A DNA stretch of 64,000 bases from positions 1 through 64,000 of the forward strand of contig CANFUT010000010.1 of NCBI GenBank assembly GCA_947450325.1, read 5' to 3'. Shown here piece after piece: positions 224 to 63,042 of the stretch. Each line of letters opens with the position of its first letter. Position 1 is the stretch's first letter. The position numbers and the translations under genes were made by a program. The stretch comes from Flavobacteriia bacterium (GTDB lineage Bacteria; Bacteroidota; Bacteroidia; Flavobacteriales_D; Crocinitomicaceae). The notes below the pieces were generated by a model. The model was not told the DNA's origin. It did not search any database and worked only from the letters and a program-made list of their open reading frames with translations.

Positions 224-838
224 TTACTTTTGAAAGAATCTCCATTTAGATTTCAAGCAACTCATGCGGTAGTCGTCTAGCAATTCAGAAACGCCTTTGC
301 CTTCGATCTTTTGCAACAATTTGTAAGTTCCTTTGCCCATTTTGTAATCCATTTCATCTTCGAAGATGGGAATGATACCTAAGAAGTGAATTTCCTTGTC
401 TTCAGTTTGAATTGGCGACAATTCTTTCTCTAAAAAGTAAGGTGCATTGAGCATCAAGTATTTTTGCTTCATCGTATTGGAAAGTGGCATCGCTGGATTT
501 CCATTCGGGAACGTATGACCGATTCCATACCACGTTTCTTTTTCGATGCAATGTTTGGCTAATTTTTGAATCCATTCAATGACCCATTTTCCATTTTCGG
601 TGGTTAAATCCCAATAACTTGGAAGGCAAAAATACAATTCTGCGTGATTGCGTTCTTTGTATTTTTCAGGAACAGGCATTGCATAGTCGCTCAAGCCATT
701 GGTCATCAAAACGATGATTTCTGAGCGCATTTCGATTTTGATTTCTAGTAAAGGGAAATCATTTTCAGACGTAGAAAGGTGCGTTTTGACATTGTTTTCG
801 CCAAATCTTTCAATCAATGTTTGCTCGAGGATATTCAT
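224..838 (-). CDS. SUFU (suppressor of fused-like) domain protein
   Basis: This is a 204-residue cytoplasmic protein with the hallmarks of the bacterial suppressor-of-fused domain: NGLSDYAMPVPE near residues 47-58, then HAELYFCLP and a tryptophan-rich stretch (WDLTTENGKWVIEWIQ), and IPIFEDEMDYK near the C-terminus. The domain is a fold found in animal Hedgehog signalling and in many bacterial proteins of unknown role, often linked to immunity or contact-dependent systems. No toxin gene is visible next to it, so no role is assigned. No signal peptide or membrane segment is seen. The ATG at 838 is preceded at only 4 nt by a TAnnTTTG element, so the transcript may be leaderless. Family assignment is good; function is unknown. 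Confidence 0.8.
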   Translation of the reverse strand: MNILEQTLIERFGENNVKTHLSTSENDFPLLEIKIEMRSEIIVLMTNGLSDYAMPVPEKYKERNHAELYFCLPSYWDLTTENGKWVIEWIQKLAKHCIEKETWYGIGHTFPNGNPAMPLSNTMKQKYLMLNAPYFLEKELSPIQTEDKEIHFLGIIPIFEDEMDYKMGKGTYKLLQKIEGKGVSELLDDYRMSCLKSKWRFFQK

Positions 839-842
839 GACT

Positions 843-850
843 CAAAGATA
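843..850 (-). promoter_or_regulatory. -7 promoter element of the SUFU gene
   Basis: On the minus strand this reads TATCTTTG, an exact match to the Bacteroidota TAnnTTTG -7 element. Its last base is 5 nt from the A of the ATG at 838, so transcription would begin at or almost at the start codon. No convincing -33 TTTG is present. Confidence 0.5.
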
Positions 851-16619: not shown

Positions 16620-16660
16620 TTCAATCTTAGCAGATTAAAAATAAACCAAAACAAAAAGAT

Positions 16661-16692
16661 AATCCCGTTAGTTTTCTAGCGGGATTTTTTTT
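16661..16692 (+). terminator. Rho-independent terminator after yceI
   Basis: An 11-bp stem (AATCCCGTTAG with CTAGCGGGATT, one G-U pair) with a TTTT loop is followed by six T. Confidence 0.9.
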
Positions 16693-16734
16693 GTGAATTA
16701 TAATTTGTTGGATTCTAATCTCAAACTGAATGCT

Positions 16735-16742
16735 TACTTTTG
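16735..16742 (+). promoter_or_regulatory. -7 element of queE, 4 nt before the ATG
   Basis: TACTTTTG matches TAnnTTTG exactly. The ATG at 16747 begins 5 nt after its last base, so the expected transcription start is at the start codon and the mRNA would be leaderless. Confidence 0.5.
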
Positions 16743-16746
16743 ATTT

Positions 16747-17370
16747 ATGAACGTAAAAAACATCGATTCAAAAGTTGCTTTGCCTGTCATGGAACGATTT
16801 TACACCATTCAAGGTGAAGGTCGTTATTCAGGAAGAGCCGCTTATTTTATTCGTTTAGCAGGCTGCGATGTCGGTTGTGTTTGGTGTGATGTGAAAGAAA
16901 GTTGGGATGCTGAAATTCACCCGCTTTTGACAATCGATGAAATTATCGATGAAATAAAACGTACTCCAACCGAATTTGTAGTCATCACAGGAGGCGAACC
17001 TGCCATGTATGATTTGACCACCTTGGTTGAAAAATTGCACAAAAACAATTGGGAAGTAGCCATCGAAACATCTGGCTGTTATCCGCTCAACGGCGCAATT
17101 GATTGGTATTGTTTTTCACCCAAAAAGTTCAAAGCGCCTTGTGATGAATCTTACCAAAAAGCCGCTGAATTGAAAGTCGTAATCTTTCATAAGTCTGATT
17201 TTGAATGGGCTGAAAAACATGCTGCACTTGTAAATTCAAATTGTTTATTATACCTTCAACCCGAATGGTCAAAACAGGAACAATTATTGCCACTCATCAT
17301 TGAGTATATAAAAAGCAATCCAAAATGGAGAGTTTCTTTGCAAACACATAAATTCATGAATATTCCTTGA
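16747..17370 (+). CDS. queE: 7-carboxy-7-deazaguanine synthase (radical SAM)
   Basis: This 207-residue radical SAM enzyme catalyses ring contraction of 6-carboxytetrahydropterin to 7-carboxy-7-deazaguanine in queuosine biosynthesis. The N-terminal ERFYTIQGEGRYSGRAAYF is diagnostic. The cluster-binding cysteines are in CDVGCVWC (CxxxCxxC spacing), followed by VITGGEPAMYD, which binds SAM. Length fits short QueE forms. The next gene starts 2 nt after its stop and may be co-transcribed. No other queuosine genes lie in the window. Confidence 0.95.
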   Translation: MNVKNIDSKVALPVMERFYTIQGEGRYSGRAAYFIRLAGCDVGCVWCDVKESWDAEIHPLLTIDEIIDEIKRTPTEFVVITGGEPAMYDLTTLVEKLHKNNWEVAIETSGCYPLNGAIDWYCFSPKKFKAPCDESYQKAAELKVVIFHKSDFEWAEKHAALVNSNCLLYLQPEWSKQEQLLPLIIEYIKSNPKWRVSLQTHKFMNIP

Positions 17371-22412: not shown

Positions 22413-22497
22413 GATATTAGGATATTAGGATATTAGGATATTAGGATATTAGGATATTAGGATATTAGGATATTAGGATATTAGGATATTAGGATAT
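22413..22497. repeat. 8-bp tandem repeat, 10.6 copies, between era and der
   Basis: GATATTAG is repeated ten times without error from 22413 to 22492, plus GATAT. It lies 14 nt upstream of the der start codon, in the presumed era-der transcript, where it reads as repeated CTAATATC. The segment to 22560 after it has loosely similar words (CTTAATATCTTCC). Perfect short tandem arrays are prone to slippage, so copy number may vary between strains. Confidence 0.95.
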
Positions 22498-22563
22498 GTT
22501 TGTTTTATGTCCTGAAGTATCTTCATCTTAAAATCCTAACGTCTTAAAATCTTAATATCTTCC

Positions 22564-23517: not shown

Positions 23518-25812
23518 TCACTTCAGTAAACTCGCGCGATATAACTTCAATTCGTCCCAAGAAAATTCGTCCCCATATTTTTCTTTTAAAGGCGTAAGTG
23601 ATTCCTCTGAATAACCTTCAAAGGCAGTTTGCAAAGCAGCCAATCTTTCTGGCGACAAAACTTGTTCAATTTCGATTAATTCCTGTTTGATGAGGTTTGC
23701 CACATGACCCAAAATTGTTGATTCGGAAAGCATTCTGAGTGTTGCAATTTGCGCGACTGTTTTGTTTTCTTGAATCATTTCATAAGTCAAATCAATGCTC
23801 GATTTTTTCTCTTTCTTTTCTTTGGTTTTCGTTTTGTTGGAAACTTTGATTTCAATCGTTTCCGTTTCTTCAAAGCTTTGGTCTAAATCCATGAGCGAAG
23901 GATTTTGTCTCAATTCTTGCTTGATTAACGCAATTTTAGTGACCTTATAGTTCAATATTTCTGAACTGAAAATATTTTCCTTCGTAATTTCTTTTCCATT
24001 TAGCACGTTTTCCAACAACACTTTAGCGCGTTTCAAATTGAGTACAACGGTAATTTGCTTTTCGTCTATTTCTTCCAATTCTTCCACATACGCTTTGATT
24101 TGCTTCAACTTTTTGATTTCTTCTATTTTTTTCAAAGTGCTATAAACCAAACCGTCCAACGTTTTGTAGAAATAATCAAAAGCAGCCTGAAATCTTTCAG
24201 CGATAAATTCAATATCAAAAGGTTCTCTTCTGAAAAGATTGTCCAATTGATTCATGAATTTCTGAGAAGGATCAATCAAATCATTCATGCTTGAAGCTTG
24301 TCGATGCGCCCAAACTTTGTGTTTGTATTTTTCAGTTTTCGAACCTGAGCCGATATAAGAAGCCTCATGGATTCGCCAAGCATCGTTCAAATCGCGCCAT
24401 TCAAAAGCGGTTTTCAAAGTGTTCAGCAAGAAATTTTTCGTTTCGATTTCTAGGCTATTTTCGAGCTGTTTTTCATCCGCTTTGTTGTTGGCAAATTGCA
24501 TCACATGTTGATCATTGCTCAATCCATTCATGCGCATAGGCGAAAGTAAAACCAAGCCGTCCAAAGAACGCAAACGAGAAAGTGCAACATACGCTTGTCC
24601 TGGTGCAAAGACCTGAGAAACATCCAAAACCGCTTTGTCGAATGTCAAACCTTGGCTTTTGTGTACCGTAATCGCCCAAGCCAATTTCAATGGAAAATGA
24701 ACGAAAGAACCCAAAACTTCTTCATTGATTTCTTTGGTATTTTCATTCAACGAATAGCGAATGTTCTGCCATTCGTGTGTTTCAACCTCAATCGTTTTCT
24801 TTTCCTCAGGAAAATAAACCAAAATTTCGCCCTCGGAAAGAGATTTCACAACGCCCATTTTTCCATTGAAATAATTTTTTTCTGACGAAGGATCGTTTTT
24901 GATAAACATCACCTGTGCGCCTTTTTTCAATTCCAAAGTTTCTTCCAAAGGATACATGTGTGCAGGAAAATCGCCAGTAATTGTGGCGTCGTATTTGAAA
25001 CTTTTGCCTTTCAATTCTGCCAATGATTTGGCGTTCATTTCATCTGCTTTGGCATTGTGAGTCGTCAAAGTGATGTAGCCTTCATTGCTTTTTAAATCAA
25101 AATCTGGATGTACAAATTCATTCAAATTTTCGACGTCTTGCGTCGTAATCGAGTTGTTTCTCAGGTTGTTTAGGATGTGAATGAATTTTTCGTCCGATTG
25201 TCGATAGATTTTCGTCAATTCAATATACAAAGGCGGATTTTCTTGGATCACGCGCGCATGAAAAAAGAAAATTCCAGGGTAATATTTGCGCAATTCTGCC
25301 CATTCTTCGTTTTTAACTACAGGCGGTAATTGCAATAAATCTCCAATATACAATACTTGTACGCCACCAAAAGGCGCATTGTTTTTTCTTACATTTCTGA
25401 GCGTCCAATCAATTGCATCTAATAAATCTGCGCGTAACATGCTGACTTCATCGATAATTAAAAGTTCCATGCCGAGCAACACATTTTTGCGCTGTTTGTT
25501 CATGTTGAAATGGCGCATCAAGGTGTCTTTCGTTTCCAATTTTGCTCGATCTGAGAAACTAGGTGCTGTTCCAAATTCTGGAATAAATCCAGCGAACGGC
25601 AATTGAAACATGGAATGAATAGTCACGCCACCTGCATTCAAAGCAGCGATTCCAGTGGGCGCAACAATGACAGCTTGCTTGTGTGTTGAAGCAATGATTT
25701 TGTGCAATAAAGTTGTTTTTCCCGTTCCGGCTTTACCAGTTAGAAAAACGGAGCGTTGAGTTTGGTTGATGAAACGAGTTGTAAATTCCGCAGGATCTGA
25801 TGTTTGTGACAT
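23518..25812 (-). CDS. Pif1-like/UvrD-type DNA helicase with C-terminal HTH
   Basis: This is a 764-residue helicase. Walker A is GKAGTGKTT at residues 26-34, Walker B LLIIDEVSM near residue 117, a glutamine motif DLLQLPPV follows, and a UvrD-like C-terminal motif AWAITVHKSQGLTFDKA lies near residue 380, with YVALSRLRSLDGL. This matches Pif1-type superfamily 1B helicases. Residues 500-640 are helical and charged. Residues 690-764 form an HTH_40-like domain (TVAQIATLRMLSESTILGHV), as seen at the end of some RecQ proteins. It probably unwinds structured DNA during replication or repair. Confidence 0.88.
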   Translation of the reverse strand: MSQTSDPAEFTTRFINQTQRSVFLTGKAGTGKTTLLHKIIASTHKQAVIVAPTGIAALNAGGVTIHSMFQLPFAGFIPEFGTAPSFSDRAKLETKDTLMRHFNMNKQRKNVLLGMELLIIDEVSMLRADLLDAIDWTLRNVRKNNAPFGGVQVLYIGDLLQLPPVVKNEEWAELRKYYPGIFFFHARVIQENPPLYIELTKIYRQSDEKFIHILNNLRNNSITTQDVENLNEFVHPDFDLKSNEGYITLTTHNAKADEMNAKSLAELKGKSFKYDATITGDFPAHMYPLEETLELKKGAQVMFIKNDPSSEKNYFNGKMGVVKSLSEGEILVYFPEEKKTIEVETHEWQNIRYSLNENTKEINEEVLGSFVHFPLKLAWAITVHKSQGLTFDKAVLDVSQVFAPGQAYVALSRLRSLDGLVLLSPMRMNGLSNDQHVMQFANNKADEKQLENSLEIETKNFLLNTLKTAFEWRDLNDAWRIHEASYIGSGSKTEKYKHKVWAHRQASSMNDLIDPSQKFMNQLDNLFRREPFDIEFIAERFQAAFDYFYKTLDGLVYSTLKKIEEIKKLKQIKAYVEELEEIDEKQITVVLNLKRAKVLLENVLNGKEITKENIFSSEILNYKVTKIALIKQELRQNPSLMDLDQSFEETETIEIKVSNKTKTKEKKEKKSSIDLTYEMIQENKTVAQIATLRMLSESTILGHVANLIKQELIEIEQVLSPERLAALQTAFEGYSEESLTPLKEKYGDEFSWDELKLYRASLLK

Positions 25813-25918: not shown

Positions 25919-25926
25919 TACATTTG
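25919..25926 (+). promoter_or_regulatory. -7 element directly before the TonB-C gene
   Basis: TACATTTG matches TAnnTTTG exactly and ends 4 nt before the A of the ATG at 25930. An upstream GTG at 25909 would place the promoter inside the gene, so the ATG is the better start. Confidence 0.5.
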
Positions 25927-25929
25927 AGT

Positions 25930-26343
25930 ATGATAAAATGGTTGATTTGTTTGGTTTTTGTGGGATTTATGATTCCAGATTTCACAGCACAGGTGGATAA
26001 AAATATGCAAACCATCGATAGCACATCTGTGATTGAGGTAGATAAGCCGGCTGAGTTTCCGGGAGGTGAATCTGCCATGTTTCAATTTTTAAGCAAGCAT
26101 TTGGTTTATCCTCCTCGCGCAAAAGAAGAAGAAATCAGTGGCAAATGTTACATGCAATTTGTTGTCACAAAAGAAGGTTTGATTGTGAACGTAAAAGTGA
26201 TGCGAGGTGTTCCTGGTTGTCCTGAATGCGACCAAGAATGTATTCGGGTTATCAAATCAATGCCAAATTGGATTCCAGCACAAAACGATGGAAAACCAGT
26301 GAATTCATATTACAATATTCCATTCACTTTTAAAACAAATTAA
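25930..26343 (+). CDS. Secreted TonB C-terminal domain protein
   Basis: This is a 137-residue protein. A signal peptide (MIKWLICLVFVGFMIPDFTA) is followed by a TonB C-terminal fold: PGGESAMFQFLSKHLVYP, then GKCYMQFVVTKEGLIVNVKV and PNWIPAQNDGKPVNSYYNIP, the usual Bacteroidota pattern. A cysteine-rich insert GCPECDQEC is unusual. There is no N-terminal energy-coupling helix with proline-rich spacer, so it is probably not a canonical TonB but one of the many periplasmic TonB-C proteins of unknown role. ArsC-like gene follows after 7 nt. Confidence 0.83.
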   Translation: MIKWLICLVFVGFMIPDFTAQVDKNMQTIDSTSVIEVDKPAEFPGGESAMFQFLSKHLVYPPRAKEEEISGKCYMQFVVTKEGLIVNVKVMRGVPGCPECDQECIRVIKSMPNWIPAQNDGKPVNSYYNIPFTFKTN

Positions 26344-27393: not shown

Positions 27394-30300
27394 TCAATCA
27401 ACATATTCATTCCTTGCCAATCTGTCTTTGATTTCTTGCAGATTTTGTGCTTTTTTCTCGTTTCTTGCTGCTTTTGCTGTTTCTGTGAAATAGCGGTGGT
27501 TTGTTAAAAAGCCGACCTGAATTTCGTCCCACTTTCTATCACTGTCAATTTTACCATGCTCGCGCAATTCAAGGCGCAATTTATCAGCAATTTTATGGAA
27601 ATCGTCTCTTCCCAAGTAATCTAAATCCGCATCACAAATGATTTCTTCCAAATGATTTTGTGGATTGTGCGGGATTTGCGTCACATAAATTAATTCTTTG
27701 ATTTGCTCGATGTGACTTTCAGAATATCCGAAGTTCGGCAAAATTTCTTCGGCCATGCGTGCCCCGACGGGTTCATTGTTCTCATAACTTTCAACAAATC
27801 CAGCATCGTGGTACGTTGCTGCTGATTTCAATAAAAACAAACCCTCATCCGTAATTCCTTCAGAAAGTGCCAATCGTTCAATTGCATGACAAACGTCTTT
27901 GGTATGTTCAATACAATGGTAGTGCAATTTTGGTGAAAGTTTCTTTTCCAAAATTTTCATGATGTGTTTTTCTGCCTTGTAATAATTGATGCTGCTATAA
28001 AAGTGCAAGTTCATGATTTGTTTGAACTTTTCGTTTGGCACCAATCCTTTTCCGTCTATCGATAATTCAGGTTTGATTCCCTCAACGGAGTACATTTCAA
28101 CATAACCTTTGCTTTTAGACATGGCTTTTCCTCTGAAAGCGCAAGCAAAATATGGTTCAATATGTTTGAATGTATTTCCTGAAATATTTACTTTTCCAGG
28201 TTCGCCCAACATTTCCATTCTTTGAGCTTGATTGACTGTCGAACCCCAAATGTCGTATTGCAATTTTTCAGAACCAATCACTCCAGCTGTCACTTCGCCA
28301 GTATTGATTCCTAAACGTAAATCCCAAATAACTTGGTTGTTTTTTTCTGCTTCAAGTCGAAGTGTTTTGACATAATCTTGAATTTGCAATGCAGCGACAC
28401 AAGCATCAATTGGATTGGTAATATTTCGAACAGGAACGCCACCAGCGCACATATAGGCGTCACCAATGGTTTTAATTTTTTCTAAATTATTTTTGACAAT
28501 GATATCATCAAATTTTCTGAAGTAAATATCCAATTGATTTACAAGTTCTGAAGGTCTTATTTTTTCAGCAATTTTAGTAAAACCAACAAAATCAGTAAAC
28601 ATCACAGAAACCGATTTGAACGCCCTAGCTTGTGCTTTTCCTTTTAATTTTAATTCTTCGTAGGTTGATTCAGGAATAATGTTTTTAAGCAATTTTTCAG
28701 TTTTCTCTTTTTCAATTTCTAACAATTGTTTTTGTTCTTCAAGCTTGTCTTTTTTCTCTTCGATGGTTCTTTTTTGCTTTTCAATTTTGACATTTTGCAA
28801 TCTAATCTCTTTTGTTCTTTCAGCAATTTTCATTTCTAATCGCACTTGTTCTCTTCTTTCGTTGTCTATTCTTTTTCTGATTAAAACAAAAATCGCAATA
28901 CCAATAATTAAGATGATTAAAATCCAAAACCAAGCTGTTTGCCAGAATGGCGTTGCAATTACAATTTCAAGAGTTGCGGGTTCTTCGCTCCATTCGCCAT
29001 TTCCAAGTCGTGCGTAAACTTTTAAAACATACGCGCCCGGTTGGAGTGAATTAAAGTGAATTTGATTAAAATTTCCCATCAATATTTCGCCTTCATCTGA
29101 ACCTTCAAGGAGATATTTGTAGGAAACTAATTCAGGATTACTTAAATCGACAGCCATGATTTTAAGCGTAAAACTGCGCTGTTTATAAGACAAATCAATA
29201 TGAGAAGTATTGGAAATGGTTGTTGTAAGAATTTTGGTGTCATCATTTGGTTTGAGCCAGTTTGCATCTAATTTTATTTTAGTGAAACTCACCTCCATTT
29301 TCCGAGTGACATTATTGAGCGTATTTGGATCGAAATAATTGAAACCAGAAATTCCTCCAAAATACAAAAGACCAGATTTCGAACGAAGAAAAGCTCCTTG
29401 GTTAAATTCATTGCTTAATAATCCATCGACTTCGGTGAAATTTGTCGATTCATAATTGAAAATATTGAATTTAGAAATTCCCTTATTTGTACTTAACCAC
29501 AAGTTACCTTGGTTATCATTTAAAATTCCGTAAATTACATTGTTTGGCAAGCCATTTTTCTTGCTGAAAATCTTTCCTTTCTGATTTTTAATGTCGAGGC
29601 GAATAATACCTGAACCCATGGTTCCCAGCCAAAATACATTTTTTGAACATTGATTGATATGCGTAATGTAATCTTTGGAAAGACTTGAAATGATTCCGTT
29701 TAATTTGGAAGGAACAATGGACAAATTATTTCCATCGATTTTTAATTCATTCAGTCCACCAACGCTTGTAGTGAACCAAATATTCCCATTTAAATCTTTG
29801 TAAATCAATCGGCAAACACCAGGAGCAATCGTTTCTTTTTTCCTTTTTGGATTGTGCTCGAAAACGGTAAAATCATTTTTACTTCTATCATATAAAAGTA
29901 CGCCGCCTTTTGTTGCTAAAAAATAGAGATTGTTTTTCCAATGCACGATATTATAGACTCTTTCAAAATTAGAAGGATTTTTAATTTTATCGAATTTGAT
30001 TTTCTCATACTTGAAATTATTTCCTACTATTTTGAGTGAAAATAGCCCATCTGTTGCGCCAACTAACAAGTCGTTTTCCGAGAGAACGTGAATGCTTAAA
30101 ATCGAAGTTTCACCAACACTTCCTTGCGAGTTAAACTGTTTTTGTTTAAAGAATTGGTCAAATTTCCCGGTTGAAATATTAAGTCTTGAAATGGCATTAT
30201 CGGTTCCGACGAAGAGAAATTTTGTTTTTTGATCTTCTCCAAAACACCAAACACTTGGCGAAGGAATTCCTTTGCTTAAATCACCGCTTGCTCCGATAGT

Positions 30301-31305
30301 TAAAAACCCTGCATTGATTGGATCAAAACTACCCAAGCCACGATTTGTTCCCAACCAAAAAGTTCCTTTTTTGTCTTTAAAAAGTACATTTAAATCATTG
30401 TCAAGCAAGCTGTTTTTTTGAAAAATATTATTGGTTGCTTGAGAAATGATTGGTTTTCCTGAATTTAAATCAATCGAAAAAAGCCCTTGAGATTGCGAAG
30501 CGACGAAAAAATGATTGTCTGTTTCAATCTCGATATCTGAAATATTCAACAGGCCAAATGATTTGTCTAAAACAGGAAGAAAGGGTGTCGCATTGATTGA
30601 ATGATTTTTCAGTTGATAAAGTCCTTGGTTTGTGCCGATCATCCAAGAATAATTGTCCATGGCACGCATGGTATTTACCCGCACAAAACTTCCTTTTTTT
30701 CCAAAAATATAAATTGGAGTCACATGTTTCGTTTTGATGTTTAGCGTAAAAAGACCTTGATCTTCAGTACTTACAAAAATGTGATTCAGATCTTTTTGAG
30801 CAACAAATTTTATTTTGTTGGAAGTAAGATTTGATTTTAGGTGCTCAATTTTTTGGTTTTTTTTATTGAGCAAATACAAACCACTTGATGCACTTCCAAA
30901 CCAAATATTTCCTTGATTGTCTTCAACTAAGCTTTCAATTTGCAATGCCACATTTCCCTTCAATTGAAAAGTTTTAAAAACCTCTAAAAGCGGGTTGTAG
31001 CAGGTTAAACCATTGGCGGTACCAAACCACAATTTACCATCAGTTGCTTTGATAGACGAATGAATGTAGTCGTTTTCAAGTCCGTCGATTTTATCGGAAG
31101 TAAAATTTTCAAAATTCTGCCCATCAAAACGATTCAAGCCATCTTGCGTTCCAATCCATAGTGTTCCAACATTGTCTTGAATAACAGTGGTTACAGCACT
31201 TTGTGATAAACCATCATTGATCGTATAATTTCTGAATCGATAATTATTTTGAGCAATAACTTGGCAAAAACTGGCAATGAATAATATGCAAATTAACTTT
31301 CTCAT
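27394..31305 (-). CDS. Propeller-Y_Y_Y sensor with adenylate cyclase and C-terminal HD domain
   Basis: This is a 1303-residue membrane sensor. Signal peptide 1-18; regulator-propeller repeats to about 690 (LWIGTQDGLNRFDG and similar); Y_Y_Y domain about 715-790; one membrane helix about 797-815; coiled coil 820-885; class III cyclase 889-1080 with metal-binding Asp905 (VMFTDFVGF) and Asp949 (KTIGDAYM), substrate-type Lys/Asp consistent with ATP, and the transition-state Asn/Arg in STVNQAQRME; then an HD-type domain about 1125-1240 with HD near 1166 (ATYHDAGF). The usual output for this sensor type is a kinase plus HTH, so cyclase and HD are unusual. A TAATTTTG -7 element ends 7 nt before the ATG. 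Confidence 0.9.
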   Translation of the reverse strand: MRKLICILFIASFCQVIAQNNYRFRNYTINDGLSQSAVTTVIQDNVGTLWIGTQDGLNRFDGQNFENFTSDKIDGLENDYIHSSIKATDGKLWFGTANGLTCYNPLLEVFKTFQLKGNVALQIESLVEDNQGNIWFGSASSGLYLLNKKNQKIEHLKSNLTSNKIKFVAQKDLNHIFVSTEDQGLFTLNIKTKHVTPIYIFGKKGSFVRVNTMRAMDNYSWMIGTNQGLYQLKNHSINATPFLPVLDKSFGLLNISDIEIETDNHFFVASQSQGLFSIDLNSGKPIISQATNNIFQKNSLLDNDLNVLFKDKKGTFWLGTNRGLGSFDPINAGFLTIGASGDLSKGIPSPSVWCFGEDQKTKFLFVGTDNAISRLNISTGKFDQFFKQKQFNSQGSVGETSILSIHVLSENDLLVGATDGLFSLKIVGNNFKYEKIKFDKIKNPSNFERVYNIVHWKNNLYFLATKGGVLLYDRSKNDFTVFEHNPKRKKETIAPGVCRLIYKDLNGNIWFTTSVGGLNELKIDGNNLSIVPSKLNGIISSLSKDYITHINQCSKNVFWLGTMGSGIIRLDIKNQKGKIFSKKNGLPNNVIYGILNDNQGNLWLSTNKGISKFNIFNYESTNFTEVDGLLSNEFNQGAFLRSKSGLLYFGGISGFNYFDPNTLNNVTRKMEVSFTKIKLDANWLKPNDDTKILTTTISNTSHIDLSYKQRSFTLKIMAVDLSNPELVSYKYLLEGSDEGEILMGNFNQIHFNSLQPGAYVLKVYARLGNGEWSEEPATLEIVIATPFWQTAWFWILIILIIGIAIFVLIRKRIDNERREQVRLEMKIAERTKEIRLQNVKIEKQKRTIEEKKDKLEEQKQLLEIEKEKTEKLLKNIIPESTYEELKLKGKAQARAFKSVSVMFTDFVGFTKIAEKIRPSELVNQLDIYFRKFDDIIVKNNLEKIKTIGDAYMCAGGVPVRNITNPIDACVAALQIQDYVKTLRLEAEKNNQVIWDLRLGINTGEVTAGVIGSEKLQYDIWGSTVNQAQRMEMLGEPGKVNISGNTFKHIEPYFACAFRGKAMSKSKGYVEMYSVEGIKPELSIDGKGLVPNEKFKQIMNLHFYSSINYYKAEKHIMKILEKKLSPKLHYHCIEHTKDVCHAIERLALSEGITDEGLFLLKSAATYHDAGFVESYENNEPVGARMAEEILPNFGYSESHIEQIKELIYVTQIPHNPQNHLEEIICDADLDYLGRDDFHKIADKLRLELREHGKIDSDRKWDEIQVGFLTNHRYFTETAKAARNEKKAQNLQEIKDRLARNEYVD

Positions 31306-31311
31306 TTACTT

Positions 31312-31319
31312 CAAAATTA
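31312..31319 (-). promoter_or_regulatory. -7 element of the cyclase-HD gene
   Basis: On the minus strand this reads TAATTTTG, ending 7 nt from the ATG. The leader would be only a few nucleotides. Confidence 0.45.
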
Positions 31320-44541: not shown

Positions 44542-45423
44542 TTATTCGTAAGCGACACCACTGGATTTCAAGACCATATAAAATCCTTCCTCCGATGTTG
44601 GTTGCATTTCTTGCGGCATGTGTTCGTTTCCATAGAGTGGCACCCAAACCAATACGTAATCATCTCCTGCAGGACCGAAAGTTGCCACAAAATAAGTGAC
44701 ATAATCTTTGATTTGTTCAGCAGATTCCAATCTGTTTTCTAATGTTGCCATTCCACTTGGCCAGCTATTTTCAGTTGACATGGATGCCAAATAGGAAAAT
44801 TCTTCTTCTGTCAAAATAGCTGAACCAACCATTACCTCACGGGCATTTTCGTCGCTATTTAAATCAAAAGTGGAATACAAATCTCCAGGTTCTGTAATAT
44901 ACACTTGCGCTTGTACATTTTCACCTTCTTCCTCAACACCATAATCGCCTTCAACGTATTCATCTTCCCCATAAACTTCTTCAGGTGACACAATTCTGGA
45001 GGCTGTGTTTCCTTCAAAATCGACGCCTACAGTTTCCATGACAAAGTAAATATCTCTTGTGGGTTTGAATTTTGTATCCAAGTTTTTATTTTCTGCTGCT
45101 GGCACGACTAGAATACAATAATCTGCGGTCGCAACAATTTTGTACACCGTGTATTTAAAAAATTCTTCTCGGTTTTCCAGTCTAGAATCTAAGTTATTTA
45201 GTCCTTCAGGCCATTTTGCCTCTTGGGAATAGGTAGTGATGTCTGTCAAAATTTTGCCCGCACCTTGCAATTTTGCTGCAGGTTTAAGCATTCCAATATC
45301 TTCCGTGAAATCATAAGTGCTAAACAACGAACCAGGATCAACGATGGTCGCGTTCACTTTCACAACTTGCGCTGAAAGAGTGATTGGCAAAAGAAAAAGG
45401 AGCATCAAAAGATTGAATTTCAT
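44542..45423 (-). CDS. Secreted protein with two tandem homologous domains
   Basis: This is a 293-residue exported protein with signal peptide MKFNLLMLLFLLPITLSAQ. The mature part is two copies of a domain of about 115 residues. Copy one (about 30-140) begins VDPGSLFSTYDFTEDIG and ends YFVMETVGVDFE; copy two (about 175-293) begins TEPGDLYSTFDLNSDEN and ends FYMVLKSSGVAYE. Each has a WPxGxxxLxxRLE segment and a hydrophobic VVP/WVP strand. An acidic linker (YGEDEYVEGDYGVEEEGE) joins them. I recognise no family. Confidence 0.7.
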   Translation of the reverse strand: MKFNLLMLLFLLPITLSAQVVKVNATIVDPGSLFSTYDFTEDIGMLKPAAKLQGAGKILTDITTYSQEAKWPEGLNNLDSRLENREEFFKYTVYKIVATADYCILVVPAAENKNLDTKFKPTRDIYFVMETVGVDFEGNTASRIVSPEEVYGEDEYVEGDYGVEEEGENVQAQVYITEPGDLYSTFDLNSDENAREVMVGSAILTEEEFSYLASMSTENSWPSGMATLENRLESAEQIKDYVTYFVATFGPAGDDYVLVWVPLYGNEHMPQEMQPTSEEGFYMVLKSSGVAYE

Positions 45424-45569: not shown

Positions 45570-45577
45570 TATTTTTG
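45570..45577 (+). promoter_or_regulatory. -7 element of dxr, 4 nt before the ATG
   Basis: TATTTTTG with TTG at 45546-45548 (21-nt spacing) as a possible -33. The ATG at 45582 begins 5 nt after its last base, so the mRNA would be leaderless. Confidence 0.5.
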
Positions 45578-45581
45578 TGGT

Positions 45582-46739
45582 ATGACAACAAAAAAAGGAA
45601 TCGCCATTCTTGGTTCAACTGGTTCAATCGGAACGCAAGCATTAGAGGTAATTGAAGCTTATCCAGCTTTTTTTGATTTGCAGGTTTTAACCGCCAATAA
45701 CAATGCAGAATTGTTGATTGAACAAGCCAAAAAATACAAACCGAATAGCGTTGTCATCGTGAAAGAATCTTTGTATGAAGAAGTGAAAGCGGCTTTGATT
45801 GACGAAGACATTCACGTTTATACAGGCGCTGAAGCGATGTCGCAAGTGGTGACTCATACAGACGTTCATGTGGTTTTGACTGCGTTGGTTGGTTATGCTG
45901 GATTGAAACCAACATTGGCAGCGATTGAAGCCAAAAAAGACATTGCACTGGCCAACAAAGAAACGCTCGTTGTGGCAGGTGAATTGGTCACAAAAATGGC
46001 GAGAGAAAATGGTGTCAATATTTATCCTGTTGATTCAGAACACTCTGCTATTTTCCAATGTTTGGTAGGCGAATTTCACAATCCGATTGAAAAAATATAT
46101 TTGACTGCTTCCGGCGGACCTTTCAGAGGTTGGGATTTGGAAGAGTTGAAAAATGTAACACCGCAACAAGCGTTGAAACATCCAAATTGGACGATGGGCG
46201 CAAAAATCACGATTGATTCTGCTTCGTTGATGAACAAAGGACTTGAAGTGATTGAAGCAAAATGGTTGTTCAATTTAAAACCTGAACAAATTGATGTCAT
46301 CGTGCATCCGCAATCGATTGTGCATTCTTTGGTGCAATTTGAAGATGGAAGCATGAAGGCGCAAATGGGTTTGCCCGACATGAAATTGCCGATTCAATTT
46401 GCATTGACTTATCCAGATCGATTTAAGACAGATTTTCCGCGTTTCAATTTCATGGATTATCCGCAATTGACGTTCGAAAAACCTGACCGAAAAACATTCA
46501 AGAATTTAGATTTGGCATTCGTCGCGATGGATTTGGGCGGAACAGCCGCCTGCGCGTTGAATGCAGCCAATGAAATCACCGTTCAGGCGTTTTTAGAAAC
46601 GAAAATCGGGTTTTTGCAAATTGCCGAAATTAATGAAAAGGTCATGAAAACGTGTTCGTTTGTGCAAAATCCCGTTTATGAGGATTTTGTTGAGGTCGAT
46701 GCGGAGGCGCGTGGATTGGCGTTGAAGATTATTGGATAG
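45582..46739 (+). CDS. dxr: 1-deoxy-D-xylulose 5-phosphate reductoisomerase
   Basis: This 385-residue NADPH-dependent enzyme makes 2-C-methyl-D-erythritol 4-phosphate, the committed step of the MEP isoprenoid pathway. The ATG at 45582 is chosen because the family starts with the NADPH motif KGIAILGSTGSIGTQALEV. Others are ALANKETLVVAGELV, VDSEHSAIFQCL (metal and phosphate), LTASGGPFRGW and HPNWTMGAKITIDSASLMNKGLE. The C-terminus ends with the short helical domain. An upstream TTG in frame would put the promoter inside the gene. It supplies precursors used by the UbiA-type prenyltransferase. Confidence 0.97.
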   Translation: MTTKKGIAILGSTGSIGTQALEVIEAYPAFFDLQVLTANNNAELLIEQAKKYKPNSVVIVKESLYEEVKAALIDEDIHVYTGAEAMSQVVTHTDVHVVLTALVGYAGLKPTLAAIEAKKDIALANKETLVVAGELVTKMARENGVNIYPVDSEHSAIFQCLVGEFHNPIEKIYLTASGGPFRGWDLEELKNVTPQQALKHPNWTMGAKITIDSASLMNKGLEVIEAKWLFNLKPEQIDVIVHPQSIVHSLVQFEDGSMKAQMGLPDMKLPIQFALTYPDRFKTDFPRFNFMDYPQLTFEKPDRKTFKNLDLAFVAMDLGGTAACALNAANEITVQAFLETKIGFLQIAEINEKVMKTCSFVQNPVYEDFVEVDAEARGLALKIIG

Positions 46740-57138: not shown

Positions 57139-58272
57139 TTATTTTAATTTGTAAGAATTCGGTTCAAATCCGATCAACAAAATATCATCTGTTTGATCTT
57201 CATTTCCTTGCCAATTTCTGAGAAAAAATTCAATCTCAATTTCTCGTTTGAGACAATCTAAACCATCTATTTTCTCTAAAAAATGGGCAAGTCCTTTTCT
57301 TTTCAACTTTTTTGAATCTGGACCGCCAAATTGATCTGTTAAGCCATCCGTGAAAAAGTAGAAAAAGTCATCGGGCGCATAGTCTATTTCAATAAATGGA
57401 ATTTCATCTAGTGACTGATAGTGCTCTCCAATTGAATTTCCTTTGAAGTTTAAAATTTTGTGTTCGTTGGCGGTGGAATCATAGTAGATGACAATTCTTT
57501 TTATTCCAGCGATTTGGATAATTGATTTTTCAGGAATGACTTTGAAAATAGCCAAATCTAAAGCATCGGAAATCCTGTTTTTTTTATCAATGTTTGCCAA
57601 GTTTTCAATGATTTTTTCGTTCAACTCATTGATGATAACTTTTAAATCGTCGTGTTTTTTTGATTTTGATACCAATATTTCATAGCTCAATACGGAGAGT
57701 AAAGCGCCAGGAATACCATGACCAGTGCAGTCTCCAATGCCTCCGATTAAGGCATCCCCGCCGCTTTTTTCGATTAAAAAACCAAAATCTCCTGAAATAA
57801 AATCTTTTGGGCGATTGATAAATATTGACTTTGAAAAATACGAATGCAATTGATCTCTTTGTAAAAATATTGCTTCTTGAATTTTTTGTGCATAGACCAT
57901 AGAATCAGTCAATTCATTCATTGTGTCTATAATCTCATCAATCGCTTTTTTGCTGATAGGCTTCGACAAAAACGCCTTCATATTCGTCGATTTCGCCCTT
58001 TCTTTGTTTCTTTCTTCCGTATTTCCAGAAATATATACTACCGGAATTGAATTCAACTTTTGAATTTCCCGCATGGTATCAATTCCATCCAAACTGCCTT
58101 CTAGACGAATATCCATCAAAATCAAATCTGCAGTATTTTCTTGAAAAAATGCAATTGCCTCCTCGCCACTTTCAAAAGTTGCTACAACTTCATGACCTAA
58201 ATCTTCAACATACTCTTTGTAAAGCGCTTGAATAATTAATTCATCTTCAACAATGACGATTTGCTTTGACAT
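57139..58272 (-). CDS. Receiver-PP2C (SpoIIE/RsbU-type) phosphatase
   Basis: This 377-residue protein has a receiver (1-120) with phospho-acceptor in LILMDIRLEG and Lys in FLSKPIS, and a PP2C-type phosphatase (about 145-377) with RPKDFISGDFGFLIEK and IGGIGDCTGHGIPGALLSVL (the metal-binding GDxTGHG motif), and GLTDQFGG. In known systems such phosphatases act on STAS anti-anti-sigma proteins. No STAS gene is in the window. It lies between a 40-aa membrane protein (8 nt upstream) and the PAS kinase, so it is a two-component output. Confidence 0.93.
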   Translation of the reverse strand: MSKQIVIVEDELIIQALYKEYVEDLGHEVVATFESGEEAIAFFQENTADLILMDIRLEGSLDGIDTMREIQKLNSIPVVYISGNTEERNKERAKSTNMKAFLSKPISKKAIDEIIDTMNELTDSMVYAQKIQEAIFLQRDQLHSYFSKSIFINRPKDFISGDFGFLIEKSGGDALIGGIGDCTGHGIPGALLSVLSYEILVSKSKKHDDLKVIINELNEKIIENLANIDKKNRISDALDLAIFKVIPEKSIIQIAGIKRIVIYYDSTANEHKILNFKGNSIGEHYQSLDEIPFIEIDYAPDDFFYFFTDGLTDQFGGPDSKKLKRKGLAHFLEKIDGLDCLKREIEIEFFLRNWQGNEDQTDDILLIGFEPNSYKLK

Positions 58273-58564: not shown

Positions 58565-58572
58565 TATTTTTG
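58565..58572 (+). promoter_or_regulatory. -7 element of the propeller kinase operon
   Basis: TATTTTTG, exact TAnnTTTG. The first ATG at 58576 lies 4 nt after its last base; a second in-frame ATG at 58624 lies 52 nt after it. Confidence 0.5.
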
Positions 58573-58575
58573 TTT

Positions 58576-61464
58576 ATGATTGCTAAAATTCAATATCAAG
58601 GTCGGAAAATACATTTTTTGAAAATGTTCAAATTTTCTCTGTTATTAGTTTTTTCAATATGGTCTGATGTTGCAGATTGTCAATACAATTATCTTTCACC
58701 ACTTTTTGATATAAATTCAGGTTTACCTCACAATGAAGTCAATGACATTGTGAAAGATGATGCGGGTTATATTTGGATCGCCACAGACAATGGACTTTCA
58801 AGGTTTGATGGCTATAATTTCATCAATTTCAATCATGAAACGCATCCAAACATATTTAAAGAAAGTCGAATCACCAAAATTCATAAAAAAGGTTCAGTTC
58901 TATACCTATTGACTGCTTCTGACGGATTAATTGAATTGCAACCAAAAATTTTGTCGTTCAAGAAATTGTACACTGCAAATTCCGTTGCGATGGCATTTTC
59001 AAATGATACAACTGCCATTCTTTTTGATTCTGGAAAATTGGTCTTTAAGGTTAAAAATAAGGTCATCTTCATTCAAAACCTAAACCTTTTCCCGAAATCT
59101 GATATTACCATTTACAAGGGGAAAATTTTTGTTTCTGTAAGTAATAAAACTATACGAATAATTAATCCAAAATTCCCAAAGAAAATAATCCAAATTACAT
59201 TTAAAGATACAGATCAATTAGGTAAATTTTATGTTTCAAAAAAATATGGTCTCGTGCTCTGGAATGGTGATGTTGTTCGTTTACTGCGAAACAATATGTT
59301 GGTTTACCATCCGAACTTTATAAATAAAAAACAGATCACTTATTTTGCTGAAGAAGATGGTAAACATATATTTATTGAAAAAAATAAAGTGCCATATGTC
59401 TATTTAAATGGACAAATGACAGGATTTTTCTCTCCCGTAGTAAATCAAAATATTTTATACAAATTTATTATTAGACTGAACAAGAGTTGTTTTATTGTAG
59501 GAACCAATCAAGGTTTCTTAAGAATAGAACAAATGCCCGCTTTGTCTTATGGAATAGATGATTTTCCATTGAATGTTGATTATCAAATAATGCAGAGACG
59601 TAAAATCATCGAATATCAAAATCAGCGATTTTTTTTGGGTTTCCCTCGCATTTCAGTAGAAAAAGAAAATGTAGTCGATCTTTTTTCAAAAAGAAATTTA
59701 ACGACCTATGACGGTTTGATTTTTAACAATGAATTATTTTGCACTACAGAAGGAGATGGATTGGTTAGTTTTGATTTAAACACAAAGGAAATTACCAATC
59801 ATGTCAATACAAATCTTGGTTTACATGAAACTTTTCAATCAATTCTAAAAATATCAGATTCTCATGTCTTGTTGTGTGGAGGAAATAAAATGGTTTTGTA
59901 TAATCCAAAAAATAAAACATCATTCGCCTATTTTTTGAAAACAGGAACAGAAATTCATGTTGCTGTAAAAAGCAACTATTCAAATGTTATTTATTTAGGT
60001 ACTAATCAAGGATTATTTCGCGGTCGATTAACCAATGGAAATGGATTCAAATTGATTGACACAGAAAAATATTCGAAATTAGACGTTAGGGATATTCTCG
60101 TGAGAGAAAAGCAAAATGAAATTTGGTTAGCAACCTACAGTGGTGTATTTGTTTTGAATTCAAAAAATCTAAAAAAGATTCACGAATATTCTAACGCAAA
60201 TCAGGTTTCAAACATTAAAGTCGTAAAACTGGTAGAGGATAAATGCAACTGTATTTGGGCTTCTACTTATTCAGGGATAACGATTTACAACACTGCGGAT
60301 GGAACGATTCGTTTTATCAACAAAAGTCATCAACTTAAGAATATTGAATATAATAATAAATCTGCTTGTTTATTGCATGACGGAAAAATTGCTTTTGGAG
60401 GTCTAAATTATTTTGAAATTATTGATCCAAAGGCTCTGAATGAATTTACATATGCCAAAACCTTTGCTATATCTGGGATTGAAACTATTGAAAATGAAAA
60501 CAAAAAATATTTTTCAGCATATCAAGAGGGACAAAACATTTCGTTTAATACGGGCAAAGAAGCGATCAAAATTTATCTTGCCAATTTGGATATTAAATTC
60601 GGAAGCGGTTATTCCTTCCAATACAGTATTGATTCTAAAAATTGGTTTACCACAGAAAAAAAGAACTGGATATTAATTTCCAATCTTACTTATGGCGAAT
60701 ATGACTTGAAAATTCGAATGTATAACCCATTTGGTCAGCTTGTTGAAGAAAAAACTTTCTCATTAACCGCCAAGACATCCGTTTTTTATAAAACAGAATT
60801 TCTAAGTTTTATCTTTATTCTTGTAATTATTATCTCAATACTTTTAGTCTACACTTTGAGACGTTCTCTACGTATAAAAACACAAACAAAATCAAGAATA
60901 GCAATGGATCTTCATGACGAATCTGGAACGATCTTAACGCGCTTGTTGATGTTGAGTAAAAAGGAAAACATTCAAGAAAAAGACAAAGAACTATTGCAAT
61001 CAGGATTGAGAGAAGCATTGTATAATTTTAGAACTTATATAAATTCGATTTCGCGTGAAAAACATACTTTACAAGATTTAACTTATGAACTAAAAGATTT
61101 TGTTACAACTTCCTGCGCGGATGCAAATATCCAAGTTGATTTTAAACCTAAATATGATTTGGATTATACTATTCAGGGAGAGCTCTATAGAGACATAAAA
61201 CTTTCCATTTATGAGATTGTTACAAATTGCATCAAGCATGCAAATGCTAATCAACTATCCATAAAATTCTTGGCTATTGACTACAGGTTAAATATTCTAG
61301 TTACTGACAATGGTTTTTGCAATATTTCGGATGTAGAAAGTTACAAAGGAAACGGAATTCGAAACATTAAAAAGCGAATCCAGAGAAATCAAGGTCAATT
61401 TAAATACTATGTTTTAGAAGGCACTACAGGATTGATGATAGAAATAAATTTACCGTTAGTATGA
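58576..61464 (+). CDS. Propeller-Y_Y_Y sensor histidine kinase (HisKA_3)
   Basis: This is a 962-residue membrane kinase of the extracellular-propeller type. Starting at the second ATG (58624) would give a neat signal peptide (MFKFSLLLVFSIWSDVADC); the first ATG is kept because the -7 element fits leaderless start. Propeller repeats (GLPHNEVNDIVKDDAGYIWI) run to about 640, Y_Y_Y about 665-735, one membrane helix near 745-765 (FLSFIFILVIIISILLVYTL). The kinase has HisKA_3 AMDLHDESGTILTRLL near residue 782, and ATPase motifs IYEIVTNCIKHANAN and DNGFC. Coupled by ATGA with a LuxR-type regulator. Confidence 0.93.
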   Translation: MIAKIQYQGRKIHFLKMFKFSLLLVFSIWSDVADCQYNYLSPLFDINSGLPHNEVNDIVKDDAGYIWIATDNGLSRFDGYNFINFNHETHPNIFKESRITKIHKKGSVLYLLTASDGLIELQPKILSFKKLYTANSVAMAFSNDTTAILFDSGKLVFKVKNKVIFIQNLNLFPKSDITIYKGKIFVSVSNKTIRIINPKFPKKIIQITFKDTDQLGKFYVSKKYGLVLWNGDVVRLLRNNMLVYHPNFINKKQITYFAEEDGKHIFIEKNKVPYVYLNGQMTGFFSPVVNQNILYKFIIRLNKSCFIVGTNQGFLRIEQMPALSYGIDDFPLNVDYQIMQRRKIIEYQNQRFFLGFPRISVEKENVVDLFSKRNLTTYDGLIFNNELFCTTEGDGLVSFDLNTKEITNHVNTNLGLHETFQSILKISDSHVLLCGGNKMVLYNPKNKTSFAYFLKTGTEIHVAVKSNYSNVIYLGTNQGLFRGRLTNGNGFKLIDTEKYSKLDVRDILVREKQNEIWLATYSGVFVLNSKNLKKIHEYSNANQVSNIKVVKLVEDKCNCIWASTYSGITIYNTADGTIRFINKSHQLKNIEYNNKSACLLHDGKIAFGGLNYFEIIDPKALNEFTYAKTFAISGIETIENENKKYFSAYQEGQNISFNTGKEAIKIYLANLDIKFGSGYSFQYSIDSKNWFTTEKKNWILISNLTYGEYDLKIRMYNPFGQLVEEKTFSLTAKTSVFYKTEFLSFIFILVIIISILLVYTLRRSLRIKTQTKSRIAMDLHDESGTILTRLLMLSKKENIQEKDKELLQSGLREALYNFRTYINSISREKHTLQDLTYELKDFVTTSCADANIQVDFKPKYDLDYTIQGELYRDIKLSIYEIVTNCIKHANANQLSIKFLAIDYRLNILVTDNGFCNISDVESYKGNGIRNIKKRIQRNQGQFKYYVLEGTTGLMIEINLPLV

Positions 61465-62666: not shown

Positions 62667-62699
62667 TTTGTTCTTTCTAAATTTATTTTGCTACTTTTG
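62667..62699 (+). promoter_or_regulatory. Promoter of the XRE gene, -7 element 4 nt before the ATG
   Basis: TTTG (62667-62670), 21 nt, TACTTTTG (62692-62699), then the ATG at 62704, 5 nt after its last base. A full promoter placed so close predicts a leaderless mRNA. Confidence 0.6.
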
Positions 62700-62703
62700 A
62701 GGT

Positions 62704-63042
62704 ATGAAAAATGTTAGTGATAATATCAAGAAGTTTAGGGAATTAAAAAACATTACTCGAGAACAGATAGCTGATAGCCTTGAAATGAGCTTATCAGGGT
62801 ATAGTAAGTTGGAACGAGGAGAGGTAGAACTGACGGTCTCGAAATTGTACAAAATTTCAGAGATATTAGAAGTGGATATTTCTCAAATCTTAAATTTTGA
62901 TGCTTCTCAAATTTTTAATGTTACAAATAATCAAATAGTAAATGGAGTGAAAGTTAATGAACAGATTAATAATTACAATGATATTTACAAAGACAAGTAT
63001 ATCAGTAAATTAGAAGAGGAGATTGAACGTTTAAAAAAGTAG
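62704..63042 (+). CDS. XRE-family HTH regulator with coiled-coil tail
   Basis: This 112-residue protein has an N-terminal XRE helix-turn-helix (residues 5-60: REQIADSLEMSLSGYSKLER then VSKLYKISEIL) and a C-terminal tail with Asn-rich NVTNNQIVNGVKVNEQINNY followed by a charged coiled coil (LEEEIERLKK), as in small regulators or antitoxin-like proteins. No toxin is adjacent. It is divergent from the 41-aa/ACP-like operon and shares a 126-nt control region, so it may regulate both. It ends 4 nt before the end of the O-antigen ligase gene on the other strand. Confidence 0.88.
   Translation: MKNVSDNIKKFRELKNITREQIADSLEMSLSGYSKLERGEVELTVSKLYKISEILEVDISQILNFDASQIFNVTNNQIVNGVKVNEQINNYNDIYKDKYISKLEEEIERLKK

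Follow-up and report, generated by a model that had tools for sequence, protein, structure and literature searches.

Introduction

The mRNAs of Bacteroidota lack Shine-Dalgarno sequences (PMC6847099), and how the ribosomes of this phylum choose their start codons therefore remains a question. Leaderless mRNAs, on which translation begins without any upstream contact, are abundant in some other bacteria. In Actinobacteria and Deinococcus-Thermus, leaderless genes with a Pribnow-like box were estimated at 19.2% and 39.4% on average, respectively, and the leaderless scan in the same paper flagged one of 37 Bacteroidetes/Chlorobi genomes (PMC3160421). According to the openly available part of that paper, its authors modelled only Pribnow-like promoters and thought it unlikely that many genes had been missed.

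Within the Bacteroidota, leaderless mRNAs have been proposed from nucleotide biases (PMC5397173), and the accessible sections of three RNA-based studies provide numbers. In Flavobacterium psychrophilum, 5.5% of 890 coding sequences with high-confidence starts are leaderless (PMC9723704). In Flavobacterium johnsoniae, 87% of the predicted transcripts have leaders longer than 10 nt (PMC6847099), so that about 13% have 10 nt or less. Differential RNA-seq of Bacteroides thetaiotaomicron placed about 3.7% of the 5′ UTRs below 10 nt (PMC7366714).

A sequence-only reading of the window, by which we mean the whole 64-kb stretch of DNA analysed here, had pointed to TAnnTTTG elements shortly before several start codons and had suggested leaderless mRNAs, with the remark that such transcripts are rarely considered in this phylum. 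The remark is at odds with the accessible literature, since the three RNA-based studies had already measured them and the study of nucleotide biases had proposed them. The observation itself led further, as we describe in the following.

Results

The motif in the window. TAnnTTTG is present, as an exact match, at all seven positions that had been named, one of them as a possible seventh (Table 1). The proposed spacing of 4–7 nt was right in being short but not in its range: counted from the G of TTTG to the ATG (hereafter the gap), it is 3–6 nt. Two gene labels stood in part. The cyclase in "cyclase-HD" is supported by Pfam, which returns Guanylate_cyc, Reg_prop and Y_Y_Y (E <= 0.001); for the "propeller kinase" Pfam returns only Reg_prop at the same threshold, which supports the propeller but not the kinase. 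The name queE for the frame at 16747 is also adopted from the earlier reading, the domain match itself being Radical_SAM.

Table 1. Candidate −7 elements, the genes that follow them and a terminator-like hairpin in the window (gap, nucleotides between the G of TTTG and the ATG)
Feature	Position	Strand	Sequence	Gap	Basis and remarks
Putative −7 element of queE	16735..16742	+	TACTTTTG	4	exact motif match
queE (radical SAM) reading frame	16747..17370	+			Radical_SAM (Pfam); predicted RNA start 16747, the A of ATG
Hairpin with T-run, resembling an intrinsic terminator, between queE and its upstream gene	16661..16692	+			fold
Putative −7 element of SUFU-domain gene	843..850	-	TATCTTTG	4	exact motif match
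SUFU-domain gene	224..838	-			Pfam SUFU 2e-28; predicted RNA start 838
Putative −7 element of dxr	45570..45577	+	TATTTTTG	4	exact motif match
dxr	45582..46739	+			Pfam DXP reductoisomerase domains; predicted RNA start 45582
Putative −7 element of XRE regulator	62692..62699	+	TACTTTTG	4	exact motif match
Helix-turn-helix (XRE type) gene	62704..63042	+			Pfam HTH_3 5e-13; predicted RNA start 62704
Putative −7 element of cyclase gene	31312..31319	-	TAATTTTG	6	exact motif match; predicted leader 1–2 nt
Reg_prop / Y_Y_Y / adenylate-guanylate cyclase gene	27394..31305	-			Pfam
Putative −7 element of TonB-C gene	25919..25926	+	TACATTTG	3	exact motif match; least certain class
TonB C-terminal domain gene	25930..26343	+			Pfam
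Putative −7 element of propeller gene	58565..58572	+	TATTTTTG	3	exact motif match; least certain class
Reg_prop (propeller) gene	58576..61464	+			Pfam

The window as a whole contains no excess of TAnnTTTG. Both strands together hold 77 copies where shuffled sequences predict 84.2 (sd 8.95), or one per 1.7 kb per strand, in fair agreement with the one per 1–2 kb that had been estimated beforehand. The 49 window starts, on the other hand, are preceded by seven motifs at gaps 3–6, a range picked post hoc, where the window-wide rate predicts 0.12 (Poisson P 6e-11) and the intergenic rate 0.28 (P 2e-8). The unusual feature of TAnnTTTG is where it is placed, not how frequent it is. None of the seven motifs contains a G at the free (nn) positions.

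Five places in the window match TAnnTTTG-N4-ATG exactly. One of these (TATGTTTG-TTTT-ATG, 22495–22509, +) has a minus-strand gene on either side and is not the start of any called gene; it may be a chance match or the start of a short unannotated frame. Because of this case, a gap-4 match by itself is no proof.

Two classes of gaps in the host genome. The histogram of motif-to-start distances that had been proposed as a check was compiled from 864 kb of the host genome (25%; 635 genes, window included). Each start was taken as the 5′-most ATG within 3 score units of the coding score, a rule in which the motif plays no part, and genes were left out if they had less than 150 nt of sequence upstream or offered no ATG candidate. 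The histogram peaks sharply at gap 4, falls into a trough and rises again to a broad second peak: TAnnTTTG occurs at gaps 3–7 in 33 genes (3, 15, 6, 5 and 4 at the individual gaps), at gaps 8–14 in 5 and at gaps 15–27 in 74. A retrained gene model returned nearly the same numbers (33, 6 and 75; n = 649). At gaps 3–6 the motif matches 29 times. Its 29 letter permutations gave flat profiles, averaging 1.6 matches at these gaps and never exceeding 8. The short-gap layout hence precedes about 5% of the sampled host genes, or about one in twenty.

Samples from relatives gave 16, 11 and 47 genes at gaps 3–7, 8–14 and 15–27 for the family (n = 501; 8 of the 11 at gaps 13–14) and 7, 2 and 34 for the order (n = 234). 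The trough is less clean in these relatives than in the host. In the class sample of 227 genes, gaps 3–7 do not rise above gaps 8–14 (3 vs 4; permuted controls 0.4 and 1.0), and 11 genes have the motif at gaps 15–27.

Three of the 33 short-gap genes are tandem paralogues at one locus of the host genome (L014:9916–14674, −). These adjoining genes encode proteins of about 350 residues each, and all three carry the motif at gap 5; the unit of promoter and start may therefore have been duplicated together with the gene.

A proposal for the short-gap class. We surmised that these motifs are −7 elements of promoters recognised by the primary sigma factor, sigma-ABfr. Promoters placed in this way would direct RNA polymerase to begin at the A of the start codon or no more than about 3 nt from it. 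The resulting mRNAs would be leaderless, and the ribosome would begin on a 5′-terminal or nearly terminal AUG without upstream contact. Some genes keep the layout across genera, and in other relatives a predicted leader takes its place, often one of roughly 11–23 nt. In F. johnsoniae, the accessible text places the element at −12 to −5 of mapped starts, 4 (or 5) nt before the start of the RNA (PMC6847099). Combined with a gap of 4, this spacing would put +1 on the A of the ATG, and it is from this that we infer the exact RNA 5′ ends and translation from a 5′ AUG. We regard it as very probable that sigma-ABfr −7 elements set the RNA start at or near the A of the ATG and thereby produce leaderless mRNAs.

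The degree of support differs between the window genes. An RNA start at or near the ATG, as the sequence-only reading had it, is strongly indicated for the four gap-4 genes and less so for the TonB-C, propeller and cyclase genes. With a gap of 3 (TonB-C, propeller; 3 of the 33 genes), the spacing would have to be 3 nt, which is unusually short, and the gap of 6 before the cyclase gene would leave one or two nucleotides ahead of the AUG.

Start codons at gap 4. Beginning from the motif rather than from the genes, we considered the 395 TAHHTTTG outside called genes, a set that itself rests on gene calls. An ATG that opens at least 60 codons stands at gap 4 in 18 cases, and at each of gaps 8–14 in 0–3. 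Among other start-like codons that open at least 60 codons at gap 4, there are four GTG, one TTG and no CTG; no such GTG occurs at any other gap between 0 and 9. The 619 TAHHTTTG inside genes have no gap-4 peak (11 ATGs there; range 4–20 over gaps 0–40).

These counts bear on the possibility that the promoters are real but that translation begins at a downstream in-frame codon, in which case the mRNAs would have ordinary short leaders and the starts would be misassigned. Calling starts from sequence alone is indeed imperfect: the coding score alone chose internal ATGs for several window genes, and codon 15 of queE is another in-frame ATG, which is common to many relatives. However, a promoter that serves a downstream start would be indifferent to the codon at gap 4, whereas the spike at exactly this gap requires a start codon there, and the codons found are mostly ATG with a few GTG. 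Furthermore, 24 of the best 30 dxr loci have a single in-frame ATG in the start region (five have none and one has six). We judge misassigned starts to be very improbable, and continue with the ATG next to the element as the predicted start of translation, at or near the predicted start of the RNA.

Promoter character of the short-gap motif. In the combined host, family and order samples, the base at −1 is a pyrimidine in 24 of 28 gap-4 genes, compared with 705 of 1307 other genes (P 8e-4) and with 49 of 102 leadered sites that have an A at the same place (P 4e-4). Bacterial RNA polymerases usually prefer to start at a pyrimidine-purine step. The pyrimidine at −1 agrees with a predicted transcription start 4–5 nt past the element; at leadered promoters, the base bias at the expected −1/+1 is weak. 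The free positions of the motif also avoid G, which occurs in 2 of 56 short-gap motifs, in 21 of 239 motifs at gaps 15–45, and in 24 of 117 at gaps 60–140. Mapped promoters of F. johnsoniae likewise avoid G at these positions, according to the accessible text (PMC6847099). We found no peak of TTTG, the −33 element, 18–29 nt upstream of the 56 short-gap or the 239 leadered motifs. Since this element is hardly visible in F. johnsoniae promoters with mapped starts either, as far as the available text goes (PMC6847099), we did not treat it as defining.

The gene order around the short-gap genes is what would be expected for first genes of transcription units. None of the 33 lies less than 50 nt behind a gene on the same strand, compared with 187 of 488 genes that have no motif within 45 nt; 13 are divergent from their neighbour, 19 follow a same-strand gene at 50 nt or more, and one has no neighbour. 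In the window, dxr, the TonB-C gene and the propeller gene are divergent from their upstream neighbours (44542–45423, 23518–25812 and 57139–58272, respectively, all −). Upstream of queE, the region 16655–16700 folds with −18.3 kcal/mol (z −6.57). Because this strong hairpin with its T-run precedes the gene, queE probably needs a promoter of its own within the 54 nt before its ATG.

Alternatively, the conserved TTTG-N4-ATG could be a translation signal that lies inside a leader, with the actual promoter further upstream. At dxr the window genome does contain a second TAATTTTG 69 nt upstream, and Bacteroidota are described, in the accessible text, as tuning translation by the sequence near the start codon (PMC6847099). 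Yet a dxr orthologue of 98% identity (L072) has kept the gap-4 motif but lacks the second one within the 100 nt displayed. There is also the additional peak of this 8-mer at 15–27 nt, as one would expect of a promoter whose leaders vary and not of a fixed translation signal. The avoidance of G, like the pyrimidine at −1, is in keeping with a transcription start. We give a translation signal marginally less credence than misassigned starts, and return to the motif as a putative −7 element.

Conservation and movement in orthologues. For each window gene we inspected the best 30 or best 20 loci, drawn from 30 to 40 genomes each. An in-frame ATG at gap 3–7 was found in 14 of the best 30 queE loci (at gap 4–5) and in 12 of the best 30 dxr loci (11 of them at 4–5). 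The corresponding numbers are 8 of the 19 best SUFU loci (gaps 4, 5 or 7) and 6 of the 16 best XRE loci with a hit (gaps 4–6; four of 20 loci without a tblastn hit were left out). The cyclase gene has the layout in 5 of its best 20 loci (gap 6 in three, gaps 3 and 7 once each), the propeller gene in 4 of its best 20, and the TonB-C gene in 3 of its best 20, which are the three closest, all within the genus and all at gap 3. Each of these counts includes the window's own locus, and the relatives of XRE and TonB-C outside the genus are partly paralogues. For the propeller gene, the closest relative among the best 20 loci lacks the short-gap motif; three other loci have it at gaps 4–7, two of which are orthologues of the cyclase gene. 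The propeller and cyclase proteins match each other in their N-terminal parts, and both genes have short-gap motifs. The protein encoded at 27394–31305 (−) carries the cyclase domain; in the one encoded at 58576–61464 (+), Pfam finds no output domain (E <= 0.001).

The spacing, for which conservation had been suggested as a check, is kept in part of the best loci, but many divergent loci are without the layout. At less than 90% identity, 11 of 27 queE loci and 9 of 27 dxr loci (from the best 30 each) have it; the layout is not obligatory, and more than half of the divergent queE and dxr loci do without it. Where a motif is present, its position is far from random. Among the best orthologue loci below 90% identity of six genes, 33 of 50 gap values between 0 and 40 fall at 3–7, where evenly spread gaps would give 5 in 41; this figure leaves out the propeller gene, whose relatives overlap with those of the cyclase gene.

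The start codon itself has moved during the divergence of these genes. Extrapolated from the protein alignment, the ATG of queE is shifted by −7 to +3 codons among relatives that retain gaps of 3–6, and that of dxr by +1 codon at gap 4 and by −3 codons at gap 7. Since the ATG has shifted and the short gap has been retained in these relatives, the box moves with the ATG. A set of named queE loci, which overlaps in part with the set above and is counted separately, has the layout in 15 of 80 cases. By its best named queE matches, the host stands close to Fluviicola/Crocinitomicaceae. The predicted leaderless type is found in 13 of 22 queE loci of the host's family, and most short-gap queE relatives of the window genome have gaps of 4–5. 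In nine queE loci of Sphingobacterium the motif lies at gaps 18–21 instead, so that one gene can apparently exist in either state, leaderless or leadered. Gaps in the trough do occur among orthologues: 8 in dxr, 9 in SUFU and 8–11 in queE (5 of 41 gap values in the named queE loci). Four queE loci from genera related to Sphingobacterium have gaps of 8–11.

Use across the phylum. We also counted TAHHTTTG-N(k)-ATG in whole genomes, where k = 10 and 13 are in the same codon phase as k = 4. An excess at k = 4 over k = 10 and 13 (P < 0.01) is present in 29 of the 45 genomes counted and missing in 16; these 45 were selected from 395 with their k = 4 counts already known, and the fraction is not a survey. 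The host genome contains 118 matches at k = 4, 45 and 49 at k = 10 and 13, and 89 at k = 19, a distance within the leadered peak. A 2.2-Mb genome of the host's family (G080) has 108 at k = 4 vs 25 and 19, with 35 at k = 19. The contrast is sharper in G182 (family f35; 35 vs 2 and 1, with 4 at k = 19), in G066 of the same family (25 vs 5, 4 and 5 at gaps 10, 13 and 19), and in G110 (family f19; 37 vs 9 and 2, with 9 at k = 19). In three genomes of family f21, the counts of 28, 59 and 73 compare with control means of 38, 41.5 and 78.5, which is little or no excess. The counts show that use of the layout differs between lineages. They give no leaderless share, because the leadered class is broad and any single k samples just a part of it. 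G182, G066 and G110 represent lineages in which the TAHHTTTG box may be used chiefly for leaderless genes.

Chance matches of an AT-rich motif within AT-rich upstream DNA, a reading that fits the lack of enrichment in the window and the orphan match at 22495–22509, are scarcely conceivable in view of the permuted motifs, the five permuted patterns per clade, the sites within genes and the genome-wide counts at gaps 10 and 13, and would predict neither the low host counts at gaps 8–14 nor the gaps in orthologues. The initial judgement that chance was unlikely is thus borne out by the positional excess in the window and by the permutation test on 864 kb.

Which genes have the layout. We scanned 27 of the 33 short-gap genes for known families, namely 20 sampled genes with NCBIfam and the seven window genes; with no background set, we claim no enrichment. 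Twelve of the 20 match a family above the curated cut-off: purK, tlyA, mgtE, hemW, rluF, acireductone synthase, mtnB, feoB, type III pantothenate kinase, recG, an Rrf2 regulator and prfB. The window adds, by Pfam, dxr, a radical SAM protein, a SUFU protein, a TonB C-terminal protein, an XRE regulator and two propeller proteins.

Discussion

A box followed by 4 nt and an ATG can be read directly from DNA, and this has practical consequences. Such genes offer natural test mRNAs with nothing before the AUG. The rule helps to fix start codons in annotation, and it shows where scans for Pribnow-like boxes can miss leaderless genes. The trough in the host at leaders of about 4–10 nt suggests that having no leader may be better than having a very short one. 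It is tempting to go further and to regard leaderless initiation in Bacteroidota as a distinct, selected state, in which the host would rarely have leaders of about 4–10 nt, genes would switch between states, and some lineages would lie well above the roughly 4–13% measured so far. We offer this broader view tentatively, and at present lean slightly against it.

Leaderless mRNAs are a known small minority in the phylum, and the host case is real but largely expected. Compared with the described sigma-ABfr promoter (TAnnTTTG or TAHHTTTG), the host motif has the same 8-mer, the same avoidance of G, a weak or absent −33 element and the same peak at 15–27 nt. In contrast to that promoter, however, the host subset is located 3–7 nt before the start codon instead of at least 15. 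The leaderless mRNAs of F. psychrophilum and F. johnsoniae come from the same phylum and the same promoter type, and the host's 33 of 635 genes are of the same order as their published shares, although the denominators differ. Their leaderless mRNAs were identified from RNA data, whereas those of the host are predicted from DNA.

B. thetaiotaomicron is a more distant member of the phylum. The example genes in the accessible part of its description are transposases, sensor kinases and transporters; of the 20 host genes scanned with NCBIfam, by contrast, 12 are named enzymes, transporters or regulators. The predicted host genes resemble the leaderless genes of Actinobacteria and Deinococcus-Thermus in the fixed distance from box to start and in the (predicted) start on a 5′-terminal AUG. 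Neither a trough in leader length nor conservation across genera is described for F. psychrophilum and F. johnsoniae in the accessible texts. Measured against the open-access literature, the new elements are the trough in the host, the joint movement of box and ATG, and the uneven use of the layout between lineages.
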